Origin: Cloacibacterium caeni
Lineage (GTDB): Bacteria > Bacteroidota > Bacteroidia > Flavobacteriales > Weeksellaceae
Reading direction: 5' to 3'
Length of the DNA: 64,000 nt
Assembly (NCBI RefSeq): GCF_907163125.1
Contig: NZ_OU015319.1
Span: 2,232,001-2,296,000 of the forward strand
Shown here: positions 458 to 63,547 of the stretch, piece after piece
Layout: every line of letters starts with the position of its first letter
Position numbering within the stretch: position 1 is the first letter of the stretch
Program-made: the position numbers and the translations under genes
Notes under the pieces: model-generated
What the model saw: the letters and a program-made list of their open reading frames with translations, nothing else
The model's database searches: none
What the model was told of the DNA's origin: nothing

Positions 458-1483
458 ATGAAAAATCAAGAAATAGCTCAACTTTTTTTCGAAGAATTTT
501 TAGGCGAAAAGGCAACCGCATTTTTGGCATTGCCTCAAAGTGGTTCTGCGCGAATGAATTTCATTGGAAAATCCTCGAATGAAACTTACGTGATTACTTA
601 CAACGAAAATCTTCTAGAAAACGAAGCGTTTTTCTATTTCACACAGGTTTTTTCAGATTTAAAGTTGAATACACCTCAGATTTTTAAAATCAACGAAGAA
701 AGAAAACTTTACATTCAGGAATTTTTAGGCGAAAAAACACTTTCTGAAATCATCACACTAGAAGGTGAATCTGAAAGAGTAAAATCTTTGGTCAAACAAA
801 CATTAAAACATTTATTTGAACTTCAAGAAAAGACCCAAAACAAAATAGATTTTTCTAAAACTTTCGAGTACGAAAAGTATGACGAACTACCAATTACACA
901 TGATTTGTACTACTTCAAAAATTATTTGATAGACATTCTAGAGTTGACTTATCACAAATCTACTTTACTGAAAGAATTCAAAAAAATTGTAGAAAAAATA
1001 GAAAATTTAGCTCCAAAATCATTAATGATAAGAGATTTTCAGGCAAGAAATATTTTGGTCAATGATAAAGACGAAGTTTTTTTCATCGATTATCAAGCGG
1101 CAATGGAAGGACCTGCTCTATACGATGTGGTTTCTTTTCTCTTCCAAGCTAAAGCCAATTTTTCTGAAAATTTCAAAAATGAAATGCTGGAATATTACTT
1201 CTCTTTTCATCCTTTAGAACAAAGAAATGAATTAGAAAAATCTTTGAAATATTGTAAAATGATTCGTTTTATTCAGGTTTTAGGAGCCTACGGTTTTAGA
1301 GGACTCATTCAGAGAAAGCCTCATTTTATCGCAAGTTTAGAACAAGGAATTCAAAATTTAGTAGAATTTACCAAAACGGAACTTGAAATGAATGAATATC
1401 CTGAGCTAAAAAACTTAATTCTACAACTGAACACAACAGAAACTAAAAATAAAATTCAAAAATTAATTGATCTAAACCATTAA
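458..1483 (+). CDS. amgK: AmgK-like amino-sugar kinase (aminoglycoside phosphotransferase fold)
   Basis: This 341-residue cytoplasmic kinase of the APH fold has a nucleotide-binding turn PQSGSARMN near residues 26-34. The catalytic loop RDFQARN has Asp193 and Asn198, and the metal-binding IDYQ has Asp211. AmgK phosphorylates the anomeric carbon of MurNAc/GlcNAc in peptidoglycan recycling, and MurU then makes UDP-MurNAc. A MurU-like gene lies 1.8 kb downstream with a RapZ C-terminal domain gene between, which supports this role over antibiotic resistance. I start at ATG 458, not the in-frame TTG at 452, which is part of the promoter box. The stop codon lies inside the first unit of the downstream tandem array. 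The substrate is inferred from context. Confidence 0.75.
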   Translation: MKNQEIAQLFFEEFLGEKATAFLALPQSGSARMNFIGKSSNETYVITYNENLLENEAFFYFTQVFSDLKLNTPQIFKINEERKLYIQEFLGEKTLSEIITLEGESERVKSLVKQTLKHLFELQEKTQNKIDFSKTFEYEKYDELPITHDLYYFKNYLIDILELTYHKSTLLKEFKKIVEKIENLAPKSLMIRDFQARNILVNDKDEVFFIDYQAAMEGPALYDVVSFLFQAKANFSENFKNEMLEYYFSFHPLEQRNELEKSLKYCKMIRFIQVLGAYGFRGLIQRKPHFIASLEQGIQNLVEFTKTELEMNEYPELKNLILQLNTTETKNKIQKLIDLNH

Positions 1484-1671
1484 GATTTTGAAATTTCAAA
1501 ATTAATTAAGAAATTAAGAACATTAAGTAAAAATAATGGAGTTGCAATTACTTAAAAATATTTTTTGATTTATCAAAAAAACTTAATTTCCTTAATACCT
1601 TAAAAATCCTTAATGGTTAAAATATAAAAATTTAATTTTAAAAAATGATTAAACTTGAAATAGAAACTAAT

Positions 1672-2199
1672 CACATTAAGATTTTGAAATTTCAAAATTA
1701 ATTAAGAATATTAAGTTTAAAAACTAAAGTTTTTAAAATGACAAAAAAGAAAGTAACTCAATTATCATATGAAATAATAGGACTTGCCATAAAAGTTCAT
1801 AAAGAACTTGGCGCTGGTTTATTAGAAAGTATATATGAGGATTGTTTAAAATATGAGTTAGAAAAAAATGGCTATGACGTGAAACAACAGTTAACTTTTC
1901 CTATTATTTATGATAATAAAATTATGGAAACTAAATTAGTTGTTGATTTGTTAGTAAATGACACTGTTGTTGTTGAATTAAAAGCAATTGAAGAAACATT
2001 ACCAATTCATGAAGCTCAACTTCTAACATACATGAAAGTTCTAAAAAAACCACAAGGATTATTGATAAATTTTTTCTCCAAAAACATCACAAAATCCATG
2101 AAGCCTTTTGTTAATGAATATTTTAACATGCTTCCTGATTGATTTTTGATTTATCAAAAAAACTTAATTTTCTTAACACCTTAATAAATACTTAATGGT
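1672..2199 (+). mobile_element. Candidate small mobile element: inverted arms around a GxxExxY gene
   Basis: This is the part of array unit 2 from the left end (CACATTAAG, 1672-1680) to the right end (CTTAATGGT, 2191-2199). The arms are imperfect inverted repeats: besides the ends, TTAAGAATATTAAGTTT on the left matches the inverse of the right arm at 16 of 17 positions. The gene at 1738-2142 fills the place that, in the short units, holds a 33-base frame (for example 1536-1568). The short units therefore look like internally deleted, MITE-like versions of this one. Mobility is an inference; no transposase motif or clear target duplication is visible. Confidence 0.4.
1738..2142 (+). CDS. GxxExxY protein (PD-(D/E)XK_3 nuclease-like family)
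   Basis: This 134-residue soluble protein has the family motif GxxExxY at residues 27-33 (G27, E30, Y33), after HKELGAG. A PD-(D/E)XK-like core follows: Asp70 in VVDLLV, then Glu80-Leu-Lys82 in VVVELKA, and a downstream HEAQLLTYMK helix. The family is widespread and often multicopy in Bacteroidota, and its function is not established. The fold suggests nucleic acid cleavage or binding. It is complete, but lies wholly within one unit of the repeat array and reads in the same direction as its neighbours. Its insertion separates the amgK-like and rapZ-like genes. The family call is firm; the function is unknown. Confidence 0.85.
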   Translation: MTKKKVTQLSYEIIGLAIKVHKELGAGLLESIYEDCLKYELEKNGYDVKQQLTFPIIYDNKIMETKLVVDLLVNDTVVVELKAIEETLPIHEAQLLTYMKVLKKPQGLLINFFSKNITKSMKPFVNEYFNMLPD

Positions 2200-2838
2200 A
2201 AAAAATAAAAATCTTAATTTTAAAAAATGAATAAGCTTAAAATAGAAACTAAACAAATTAACCATTAAGATTTTGAAATTTCAAAATTAATTAAGAAATT
2301 AAGAACATTGAGTGAAAATAATAGAGTTGCAATTACTTAAAAATATTTTTTGATTTATCAAAAAAACTTAATTTTCTTAATACCTTAATAAATACTTAAT
2401 GGTAAAAAATAAAAATCTTAATTTTAAAAAATGAATAAGCTTAAAATAGAAACTAAACAAATTAACCATTAAGATTTTAAAATTTCAAAATTAATTAAGA
2501 AATTAAGAACATTAAGTGAAAATAATGGAGTTGCAATTACTTAAAAATATTTTTTGATTTATCAAAAAAACTTAATTTTCTTAATACCTTAATAAATACT
2601 TAATGGTAAAAAATAAAAATCTTAATTTTAAAAAATGAATAAGCTTAAAATAGAAACTAAACAAATTAACCATTAAGATTTTAAAATTTCAAAATTAATT
2701 AAGAAATTAAGAACATTAAGTGAAAATAATGGAGTTGCAATTACTTAAAAATATTTTTTGATTTATCAAAAAAACTTAATTTTCTTAATACCTTAATAAA
2801 TACTTAATGGTAAAAATAAAAATCTTAATTTTAAAAAA

Positions 2839-4002: not shown

Positions 4003-4076
4003 ACCATTAAGTTTTCAAATAAATTTTGAAAATTATTAAGAAATTTATGGTAAAATAAAACTAAATTTTAAAAAAA
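4003..4076 (+). repeat. Shortened relative of the amgK-rapZ array unit, ending at a start codon
   Basis: It begins ACCATTAAG (4003-4011), contains a diverged TTTTCAAAT/ATTTTGAAAA palindrome and an ATTAAG, then TTATGGT (4045-4051), and runs through TAAAATAAAACTAAATTTT and an A-run directly into the ATG of the LOG gene. The order matches the array units, with the middle deleted. It fills the gap between murU and the LOG gene as the array fills the gap before rapZ. Confidence 0.6.
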
Positions 4077-55657: not shown

Positions 55658-55670
55658 AATTTTTGGCAGT

Positions 55671-55752
55671 TGTCATTCTGAATGGAGCGTAGCGAAATGA
55701 AGAACCTCATCAAATACATTCTTCACTCCATTTCATTTCATTCAGAATGACA
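55671..55752. repeat. REP-like palindromic repeat, copy B
   Basis: Outer arms TGTCATTCTGAA / TTCAGAATGACA are identical to copy A at 30386-30480. The inside differs, with GGAGCG, GAAATGAAGAA and CTTCACTCC. It lies between converging genes and may act as a terminator. Confidence 0.8.
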
Positions 55753-55762
55753 AAAATGCTTT

Positions 55763-58841: not shown

Positions 58842-58909
58842 TCTCGCAGATTTTACGGATTAAGCAGATTATCAAATAATCATCTGCTAGATTTGCTAAA
58901 TCTGCGAGA
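58842..58909. repeat. Palindromic repeat between thiL and the LpxH-like gene
   Basis: Outer arms TCTCGCAGATTTTA and TAAATCTGCGAGA and inner arms AAGCAGATTAT / TAATCATCTGCT form a long imperfect hairpin. It lies between converging genes and may end both transcripts. Confidence 0.65.
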
Positions 58910-62280: not shown

Positions 62281-62499
62281 ATGATAGAAACCTTTGAAGA
62301 AAGTCCAGTTTTAGCAAGTTTAGGCTTAGTTACTTTCATCATTGTTATCTTCTCTGTGTTTGTAATTCCAGTGATGGTAATAATATCAACCTATAATTTC
62401 TTCAAAAAAAGAGGCAATAAAAAACTGTCAATATTAATTCCAAGTTTACTGCTATTAATACACATTTTCTTAATTTCATATATAATATTCTTTCAATGA
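62281..62499 (+). CDS. Small two-helix membrane protein
   Basis: This 72-residue protein has helices at about 12-38 and 50-70, joined by FFKKRGNKK. I recognise no family. Its stop (TGA, 62497-62499) overlaps an ATG at 62496 that opens a truncated copy of the sulfurtransferase start, so the two were once translationally coupled. It starts 10 bp after the HMG-CoA lyase gene. Confidence 0.55.
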   Translation: MIETFEESPVLASLGLVTFIIVIFSVFVIPVMVIISTYNFFKKRGNKKLSILIPSLLLLIHIFLISYIIFFQ

Positions 62500-62545
62500 A
62501 ACCCATCATCACCGCAACCGAACTTCAAGAAATTTTCAATTAAGA
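62496..62545 (+). pseudogene. Truncated duplicate of the sulfurtransferase gene start
   Basis: Reads MKPIITATELQEIFN then stop. The first 30 bases are identical to the start of the intact gene at 62690, and similarity continues less well for about 25 more bases. It retains an ATGA overlap with the gene before it. Confidence 0.75.
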
Positions 62546-62689
62546 AAAATTGTCTTTAAATTTAACTGCTCACAGATTGCACTGATAAACACTTCGCTTT
62601 GCGAAGCATTTTAATGCCTTTGCTGAGTGAAACGACTTAAAATTTAAAGAAATAAATAAAAATCTTTGCGTTTAAAAAAAATATACACA
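62546..62689. repeat. Inserted-looking sequence between the duplicated sulfurtransferase starts
   Basis: This stretch contains a CTTCGC/GCGAAG hairpin (62592-62606) and the words CACAGATTGCACTGATAA and AATCTTTGCGTTTAAA, like intergenic repeats in related genomes. It separates the duplicate start from the intact gene. Confidence 0.4.
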
Positions 62690-63547
62690 ATGAAACCCAT
62701 CATCACCGCAACCGAACTTTCAGAAATTTTCCATCAAGAAAACTTAGTAATTCTTGATGCGAGAACGGGAAAAGAAGCTCGTGAAAATTATCTACAAAAT
62801 CACATCAAAGGCGCTAGATTTATAGACCTTGACAAAGATTTAGCAGAAATTGGCGAAAATGCAGCTTTCGGAGGAAGACATCCTTTGCCAAAGATTTCAA
62901 AATTTGCAGAGACTCTGCAAAATTTAGGAATTTCTGAAGATTCACATATTGTGGTGTATGACACTTCTAACGGTGCAAATGCCGCTGCAAGATGTTGGTG
63001 GATGTTAAAATCTTTTGGAGTTGAAAAAGTTCAGGTTTTGAGTGGTGGATTTCAAACGGCAGAAAAAGCAGGAATTCCTTTAAAATCTGGGGAAGAAATT
63101 TTTGAAAAAACTTCTTTTATCTTGAAAGAAAACTGGAGTTGGCCAACCTCAACTTTGGAAGAGGTAGAAAAAGAAATTTCAGAAAATTCTGCGATCGTCA
63201 TAGATGTACGAGATGCTTACAGATACCGTGGAGAAAGTGAACCAATAGATTTAGTAGCAGGACATATTCCTGGTGCGATTAACATTCCTTTTTCTGAAAA
63301 TTTAGATGAAAATGGATCGTTTCTATCACCCGAAACACTCAAAGAAAAATATCACAACTTATTATCAGATGCTTCGACTCCGCTCAGCATGACAAAAAAA
63401 CTAATCATTCACTGTGGTTCTGGAGTTACAGCTTGTCATACCATTTTGGCTTTAGATTATGCTGGTTTCCCAATTCCTAATTTATATGTTGGTTCTTGGA
63501 GCGAATGGAGCCGAAGAGAAGGTAAGGAAATTGCGAGAGAAGTTTAG
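62690..63547 (+). CDS. sseA: 3-mercaptopyruvate sulfurtransferase (two rhodanese domains)
   Basis: This 285-residue enzyme has an N-terminal inactive rhodanese domain and a C-terminal active one. The catalytic loop CGSGVTA has Cys242 and the mercaptopyruvate-type signature, so mercaptopyruvate is preferred over thiosulfate. The segment just before it, DASTPLSMTKK (227-237), is the translation of a dispersed repeat word (63371-63394). I start at ATG 62690; an in-frame TTG at 62666 is less likely. A partial duplicate of the start lies 194 bp upstream. Confidence 0.9.
   Translation: MKPIITATELSEIFHQENLVILDARTGKEARENYLQNHIKGARFIDLDKDLAEIGENAAFGGRHPLPKISKFAETLQNLGISEDSHIVVYDTSNGANAAARCWWMLKSFGVEKVQVLSGGFQTAEKAGIPLKSGEEIFEKTSFILKENWSWPTSTLEEVEKEISENSAIVIDVRDAYRYRGESEPIDLVAGHIPGAINIPFSENLDENGSFLSPETLKEKYHNLLSDASTPLSMTKKLIIHCGSGVTACHTILALDYAGFPIPNLYVGSWSEWSRREGKEIAREV
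63371..63394 (+). repeat. Dispersed-repeat fragment inside the sulfurtransferase gene
   Basis: GCTTCGACTCCGCTCAGC followed by ATGACA is a core word of extragenic repeats in many Bacteroidota. Here it is in frame and codes ASTPLSMT, just before the catalytic loop. Length is a multiple of three, so the gene stays open. Confidence 0.6.

Follow-up and report, generated by a model that had tools for sequence, protein, structure and literature searches.

Within a window of 64,000 nucleotides from the Cloacibacterium caeni genome, a gene of the GxxExxY family was found inside an intergenic palindrome. We explain this locus, with moderate confidence, as a mobile palindromic repeat of intergenic DNA, here in the form that carries the gene; the nuclease would drive the copying or conversion of that repeat. 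Comparison of loci and genomes suggests that the GxxExxY nuclease copies or spreads its own repeat family. No description of an association between GxxExxY and palindromes was found in the open-access literature; in the portions available, searches for PF13366, TIGR04256 and the arm words gave nothing relevant, and mentions of GxxExxY were incidental.

The gene lies in an array of units, and the relevant features of the window are as follows.

1476..1617, + strand: gene-free unit U1.
1618-1671: spacer of the same make as those below, more diverged.
1672..1737, + strand: left arm of the gene-bearing unit U2, with inward TTAAG words and outer end CACATTAAG.
1738..2142, + strand: GxxExxY gene, 134 aa, PD-(D/E)XK-like nuclease, matching the PF13366 and TIGR04256 profiles.
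2143..2199, + strand: right arm of U2, with inverted TTAAG words and terminus CTTAATGGT.
2200..2260, + strand: spacer consisting of a copy of the downstream gene's start (ATGAATAAGCTTAAAATAGA) and a copy of the upstream tail (beginning AGAAACTAAA).
2261..2403, + strand: gene-free unit U3.
2404..2464, + strand: second spacer of the same make (copies of downstream start and upstream tail).
2465..2607, + strand: gene-free unit U4.
2608..2668, + strand: third spacer of the same make.
2669..2811, + strand: gene-free unit U5, which aligns end to end with gene-excised U2.
4003..4051, + strand: degenerate gene-free copy (from ACCATTAAG to TTTATGGT), two genes downstream.
58842..58909, strand not assigned: gene-free palindrome of CGCAGATT words, the word type of the GxxExxY gene at locus L118 of the same genome.

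ACCATTAAG starts at positions 1476, 2261, 2465, 2669 and 4003 of the window, CTTAATGGT ends at 1617, 2199, 2403, 2607 and 2811, and the units downstream of the gene have a period of 204. The upstream gene at 452-1483 ends in the ACCATTAAG of U1, which provides its stop codon (CAT TAA G). A sequence-only reading of this DNA had placed the gene at the centre of U2 between arms that match the other units, and alignment of gene-excised U2 with a gene-free unit bore this out. The claimed 16/17 identity between the inner arm TTAAGAATATTAAGTTT (1702-1718) and the inverted right arm (2160-2176) was reproduced, and the 33-base frame described for the short units was found (ATGGAG...TGA). Of the inverted outer ends, CTTAATGGT at the right end stood; the left end of U2 (1672-1680) is CACATTAAG, 7/9 identical to ACCATTAAG, and the intact form occurs in the related genome G060. 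Thus gene, arms and units were as described, and the left outer end sequence was not.

Because the spacers are copies of both flanks, the short units of the window look like the result of local tandem duplication, not of spread, and the array as a whole appears to have arisen by several rounds of tandem duplication that took in the element and its flanks. The own-genome DNA search with the ACCATTAAG-type unit, in which the best 40 of 122 candidates were scored and weak copies may be missed, gave seven matches: six in the array, and one a weak 32-base match elsewhere. This search found the local array only, and no dispersed TTAAG-type copies. A pattern search with ACCATTAAGN{30,60}AATTAAG across the own genome was discarded after one irrelevant match. 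The cores of the short units were also inspected and showed no detectable trace of the gene (173 and 900 of 2000 shuffles reached the scores). The layout had been read as an autonomous element with MITE-like derivatives. Shared ends with an internal deletion were indeed found, the gene-excised copy aligning end to end for two word types, and gene-free forms exist; the short copies in the window form a local tandem array. Spread of gene-free copies is visible in the own genome for another word type, AAAAG.

The window protein is a member of the GxxExxY family. PF13366 (PDDEXK_3) matched it at E 1.9e-38 (131.8 bits, cut-off 22) and TIGR04256 at E 7.8e-41 (139.1 bits, cut-off 35); a Pfam scan of the window gene at E 0.001 gave PDDEXK_3 alone and no HUH/Y1 transposase. 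The curated PF13366 and TIGR04256 models give the family no function. In 76 aligned GxxExxY sequences, G27, E30, Y33, E80, K82, Q94, N111 and F112 were invariant, and D70 and Y98 were present in at least 90%. The catalytic residues of D..ExK (D70, E80 and K82) are therefore retained, and a QxxxY motif (with Q94) is also present. D..ExK together with QxxxY is the pattern of RecB/Cas4-type nucleases. PADLOC Cas4 profiles matched three GxxExxY proteins weakly (E 1.5e-4 to 1e-2), and a weak match (E 0.031) was obtained to PDB 4ic1, which we take to be a Cas4. The Fe-S cluster of Cas4 is held by several cysteines; the window protein has one cysteine and thus no Fe-S cluster site of the Cas4 kind. 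Within the genus, dN/dS of GxxExxY was 0.10-0.24, from only 6-7 differences per pair; across genera it was ~0.06, with dS near saturation. The window gene is under purifying selection and its catalytic residues are kept.

We then compared arms across GxxExxY loci. The own genome holds six GxxExxY genes, one of them with an internal stop, and every one has arm words of its own. Placement inside a unit is clear for the window gene and for L119; L118 and L120 lie between arms, with further palindromes upstream; L116 and L117 stand beside a whole upstream palindrome and have no downstream arm. In the bacterial family, GxxExxY is present in 29 of 60 genomes. Of 88 matches scoring 100 bits or more, 81 make up the family locus set; the other seven are on short contigs (G003, G019, G040, G057). 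When the left 300 bp was compared with the inverted right 300 bp, the median score of the 81 genes was 26; mismatched pairs gave 15, and 289 other ORFs gave 14. Scores above the null's 99th percentile were found for 29/81 GxxExxY genes vs 2/289 control ORFs, and the left and inverted right flanks of GxxExxY shared 383 10-mers where 34 were expected. The same word class pointed inward on both sides, within 200 bp, at 57 of the 81 loci, on one side at 13, and none was recognised at 11; in the outward control on the same loci the numbers were 8, 16 and 57. Arms are thus one-sided or unrecognised at 24/81 loci, and the gene-inside-palindrome layout is not universal.

These controls bear on the simplest alternative, that the arms are simple repeats of AT-rich intergenic DNA beside an ordinary gene. 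The AT-rich arms of U2 taken alone score 19, against a shuffle mean of 13, and 37 of 2000 shuffles reach 19. The arms of the window unit alone are therefore only modestly above chance, and the case rests on other loci. There, both the control ORFs and the label permutation described below speak against coincidence, which we regard as a negligible prospect.

Arms also occur well outside the family. A wide set was formed from the best 80 of 580 loci of a named-genome scan and covers Bacteroidota, Verrucomicrobia, Cyanobacteria, Planctomycetes, Chloroflexi, Proteobacteria, Spirochaetota, Acidobacteria and others, including two archaeal contigs, of which L194 has arms on both sides and L187 not clearly. 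For the 74 loci with both flanks, the median arm score was 20.5 vs 12, with 37 loci above the null's 95th percentile and 20 above the 99th, scores that are blunted by some ORF starts placed too far upstream. The generic word C[AG]CN[ACG]AG suits this set: words pointed inward and outward at 445:136, with spacing mostly 8-10, and at least two inward words stood on both sides at 48/80 loci (outward, 7/80). It is too narrow for the family set (both sides at 7/81 loci; outward, 1). Own arms matched better than the arms of other loci in 72/81 and 62/76 cases.

With L043 as query, GxxExxY was found in 6 of 72,556 plasmid records and in none of 50,697 phage records. Plasmid examples come from Bernardetia, Bacteroides finegoldii, Gemmatirosa and Sphingomonas, where fabD and fabG flank the gene; a Persicobacter plasmid locus showed no clear arms. 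On a Prevotella nigrescens plasmid (L133, 1968-2393), a GxxExxY gene lies near GATTTG/CAAATC word arrays, a further word type. A GxxExxY protein has been listed for the genome of the algal virus CpV-BQ1 (PMC12085832), so that the family is not confined to prokaryotic chromosomes.

The arm word depends on the protein. ACCATTAAG/CTTAATGGT, which the sequence-only reading had proposed to search for beside the GxxExxY genes of flavobacteria, belongs to one protein subfamily, and others carry other words. Word classes were fixed after the arm-score and 10-mer results and before the tree and pair tables, with GxxExxY fragments (G055) excluded from typing. On the protein tree, arm words were sorted by clade. 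Among 3119 pairs without shared context, arm similarity rose with protein identity (rho 0.157; reached by 0 of 2000 permutations). In the pair tables, which are built from 57 labelled loci and whose pairs are not independent, a word was common to 45/60 different-site pairs of at least 65% identity and to 79/1459 below 65%; label permutation of the former averaged 6.2 and never exceeded 16 in 5000. Same-site pairs shared the word in 37/47 cases at or above 65% identity and in 3/28 below.

The idea that this agreement in itself proves spread was partly wrong, as 103 locus pairs share a site. After site-sharing loci were dropped (36 rows, 20 labelled), 11 word changes were needed vs 14.7 on shuffled labels (minimum 11 of 500), so that the word-by-tree signal persists by a weak margin; a coarser shared-flank filter before the tree test had left 30 rows, 16 of them labelled. 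Over 109 site-sharing pairs, gene identity and flank identity were weakly correlated (0.10). Where a shared site holds a different GxxExxY, gene and word usually both differ. At the site shared by L068 and L100, the flanks are 98% identical, the genes 32%, and the words are TTAAG and CGCAAAG; L056 carries both elements side by side, which makes differential loss an alternative to replacement at that site. These findings show that a gene subfamily and its arm word are linked, at unrelated sites as well.

Gene-free copies were examined by DNA searches in which the best 40 candidates per genome were scored. The gene-free AAAAG-type element at 1424216-1424345 of the own genome has nine further gene-free relatives there at E<1e-8, and the gene-bearing AAAAG copy (1702586-1703118) is this element split at its centre (query 62|74). 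Dispersed intergenic palindromes of a gene's own type are thus present in the own genome for AAAAG. In two genomes, the arms are 101-111 bp apart in gene-free copies and 511 in the gene-bearing one. Two further repeats of the window stand apart from these: a palindrome at 55670-55753 (beginning TTGTCATTCTGAATGGAGCG), with a 14-base loop and unrelated words, and a 58-base direct repeat at 62494-62745, 91% identical, whose starts are 194 bases apart.

The number of gene-free copies per genome, a count that the sequence-only reading had asked for, differed with gene presence. The word-pair pattern CRCARAGNNCRCARAG occurred 278 times in the 29 genomes with GxxExxY and 22 times in the 31 without; a control pattern occurred 11 times in all 60. 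In six genera having both states, the contrast was clear in two, and in four the counts were 0 or 1 either way. The first clear genus had 11 pairs in G000, 11 in G010 and 21 in G056 vs 3 in gene-less G039, and the second 29 in G004 and 17 in G053 vs 3 in gene-less G035. Some gene-rich genomes had few CRCARAG pairs (G030, 7 matches and 0 pairs; G036, 8 matches and 1 pair). The AAAAG pattern was found in 9/9 genomes with an AAAAG-type gene (289 places), in 8/20 genomes with other or unread types, a group that includes genomes whose gene type was partly or wholly unread (96 places), and in 2/31 genomes without GxxExxY (6 places); the control pattern gave 0. AAAAG gene types were taken from words within 300 bp, and both word counts include the genes' own arms (own genome: 1/11 and 2/16 places). 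Repeat number therefore tracks gene presence, with exceptions. Arms occur at most loci and are far fewer in gene-less genomes, so that neither a lack of arms at other loci nor their equal abundance in genomes without the gene, the two outcomes that the reading had said would speak against it, was observed.

These counts also bear on the possibility that a transposase encoded elsewhere, for example a RAYT, moves the palindromes, and that GxxExxY became trapped within or next to them and was retained for a different function. We know of no transposition activity in the GxxExxY family, and L116 and L117 adjoin a palindrome without being inside it. For REP repeats, mobilisation by RAYTs acting in trans has been proposed (PMC3116915). 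However, the gene is central at most loci, each subfamily has a different word, the association extends over many phyla, and gene-free copies follow the gene. We consider a passenger role quite unlikely.

Sites were next compared among relatives. Among seven genomes of the genus, G000, G056 and G060 have gene-bearing and gene-free units at the window site, in varying order and number. In G062 and G039 the two ORFs overlap and the site is cleanly empty, the state that the sequence-only reading had proposed to look for in relatives lacking the gene; a short relic may be present in G010, and G061 holds an unrelated insert. The degenerate copy at 4003-4051 is missing in G039 and G062. Of four gene-free sites (among eight typed), three are filled, as judged by gap size, in four species including the source and are empty in G039; two of these three are empty in G010 and G061 as well. 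At the fourth, four relatives have a different palindrome. At G000:C1:123184-123314, an AAAAG-type repeat, G056, G060, G062 and G039 have a different palindrome (beginning AATCCTTCAAGGATT). The L116 site holds CACAAAG words with the gene in G000 and, judged by gap size, in G060, other palindromes in G056 and G062, and heptamer palindromes in G039 and G010. One intergenic point can thus hold different repeat families in different species. The L118 site occurs in gene-bearing, gene-free and empty forms: it is empty in G060 and G062, and G056 has a gene-free palindrome with an identical right arm. Candidate target duplications at element ends were short A/T runs only, the ends being AT-rich. Several elements start at, or within, the final codons of the preceding gene and thereby supply its stop; in the left flanks of L119 and L120, the element arm codes for the C-terminus of the upstream gene, unlike in relatives with an empty site.

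Some PD-(D/E)XK proteins are homing endonucleases, and GxxExxY might cut gene-free palindromes of its own word at their centre, the gene entering by repair and the palindromes spreading by other means. Homing by conversion of this kind would suit the AAAAG-type gene, which lies exactly where gene-free copies have ~12 bases, and the gene-free palindrome of G056 at the L118 site. Against it, close relatives have empty sites without any palindrome, at the window site (G039, G062) as well as at the L118 site (G060, G062), and gene-free copies track the presence of the matching gene. We judge homing unlikely, and continue to favour a nuclease that would drive the copying or conversion of gene-bearing and gene-free units alike.

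The window-site element is probably not a recent arrival. In a survey across the family, 30 loci of the window site were read, of which 7 had the upstream gene out of reach and 2 were ambiguous. The gene is present at four (G000, G056, G048, G036). G027 has a 24-residue gene fragment of 58% identity, a C-terminal-like relic on the gene strand (L340, 1311-1382). Sixteen loci, G010 included, have -5 to 66 bp between the ORFs, and two of these sixteen (G026 and G020) have TTAAG remnants at the same point. Between genera (six loci), GxxExxY genes are 61-79% identical and the neighbours 61-72%. Since the window GxxExxY diverges about like its neighbours, the element has probably been resident since before the genera split, and a long vertical residence with many losses is probable.

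Inverted arms can also pair in a transcript, and within gene clusters a stop codon marks, or immediately precedes, the start of several elements. An RNA element has therefore to be considered, in which GxxExxY would process or protect the hairpin, as in the intervening sequences of 23S rRNA, and the copies would be regulatory. Sense- and antisense-wobble mismatches numbered 156 vs 209 (52 loci) and 139 vs 168 (41 loci), a test of limited power because the aligned stretches include weakly matching DNA. Rfam gave no match at the window region or at eight related loci, and short direct words at about the period of a helical turn suggest DNA binding. As there is no G-U preference on the gene strand, the arms are more likely read as DNA, and we hold an RNA element to be very improbable.

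We propose that GxxExxY, a small nuclease of Cas4/RecB-like type, recognises the words repeated in its own arms and binds them as DNA. Repetition of the words about once per helical turn suggests several protein copies side by side on the word array. GxxExxY would then nick or cut at the arm words. In this way it may drive the copying of units, both with and without the gene, into other intergenic positions, in many cases where a gene has its 3' end; alternatively, units may be converted by repair. Gene-free units would act in trans as parasites of GxxExxY, a relation like that of REPINs to RAYT transposases. An established element could undergo long inheritance in place, local tandem multiplication, gene loss and shrinkage to a relic.

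A second protein family shows a similar layout. Four-helix proteins of PF05635, unrelated to GxxExxY and belonging to the IVP family of 23S rRNA, occur in 34/40 genomes, with 13 matches in the own genome. At loci L215-L244, their genes lie between inverted short-word arrays of different words, and arms were above the null's 99th percentile at 9/28 loci (2 of 30 were omitted as short). The heptamer period is sharp in the 19 loci with a usable arm (self-match 0.59 at 7 and 0.57 at 14); GxxExxY arms show a weak peak at 9-10 (0.33 to 0.34; 54 and 43 loci). We put forward, as a tentative proposal somewhat short of even chances, that GxxExxY proteins are the engines of an undescribed class of mobile repeats, with a Cas4-like enzyme, subfamily-specific words and arrays with or without the gene, and that PF05635 is a parallel heptamer class.

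The layout and the match between subfamily and word give the widespread GxxExxY family a testable job and, for many of its members, a predicted DNA target. If the proposal is true, REPIN-like repeats could arise by two routes with unrelated enzymes, and common intergenic word repeats, such as CACAGAG, CGCAAAG and CACGAAG arrays, would have an explained origin; the GxxExxY and PF05635 classes together would account for much of the unexplained intergenic short-word repeats in many phyla. A natural protein-to-word table could aid the study of how small nucleases choose short DNA.

Among known systems, REPINs are palindromic doublets of REP sequences (PMC3116915), are more numerous where a RAYT gene is present, are inherited vertically and are absent from plasmids (PMC8049555), and the RAYT enzyme and its palindrome co-evolve (PMC8266576), as far as the available parts of these sources go. 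On that basis, the GxxExxY element resembles REPIN/RAYT systems in its small intergenic palindromes tied to a gene, co-diversification, more repeats with the gene and vertical persistence. It differs in that GxxExxY is a PD-(D/E)XK protein unrelated to the HUH transposase RAYT, in that the arms consist of words of 7-9 bases repeated every 8-10 bp, and in that the gene is mostly inside the palindrome, with several subfamilies per genome and a few plasmid copies. With no HUH transposase, the element is not a REPtron, but works like one. As with MITEs and their autonomous parents, gene-free copies share ends and inner sequence with the gene-bearing copy; however, there is no IS-type transposase. 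The likeness to Cas4/RecB nucleases lies in the shared motifs and weak profile matches, and the difference from Cas4 in a length of ~125-135 aa and, in the window protein, the missing cluster site. The intervening sequences of 23S rRNA (S23, PF05635) likewise have a small protein gene between inverted arms, but GxxExxY is an unrelated protein in intergenic DNA, the heptamer period is on the PF05635 side, and the window gene does not belong to this class, which is PF05635 within rRNA. The TAACTGA heptamer repeats of Beggiatoaceae and cyanobacteria are also intergenic short direct repeats in distant phyla; in the part of the report available, no gene is named inside those arrays (PMC4679880), and we infer a link between these heptamers and PF05635-type arms.
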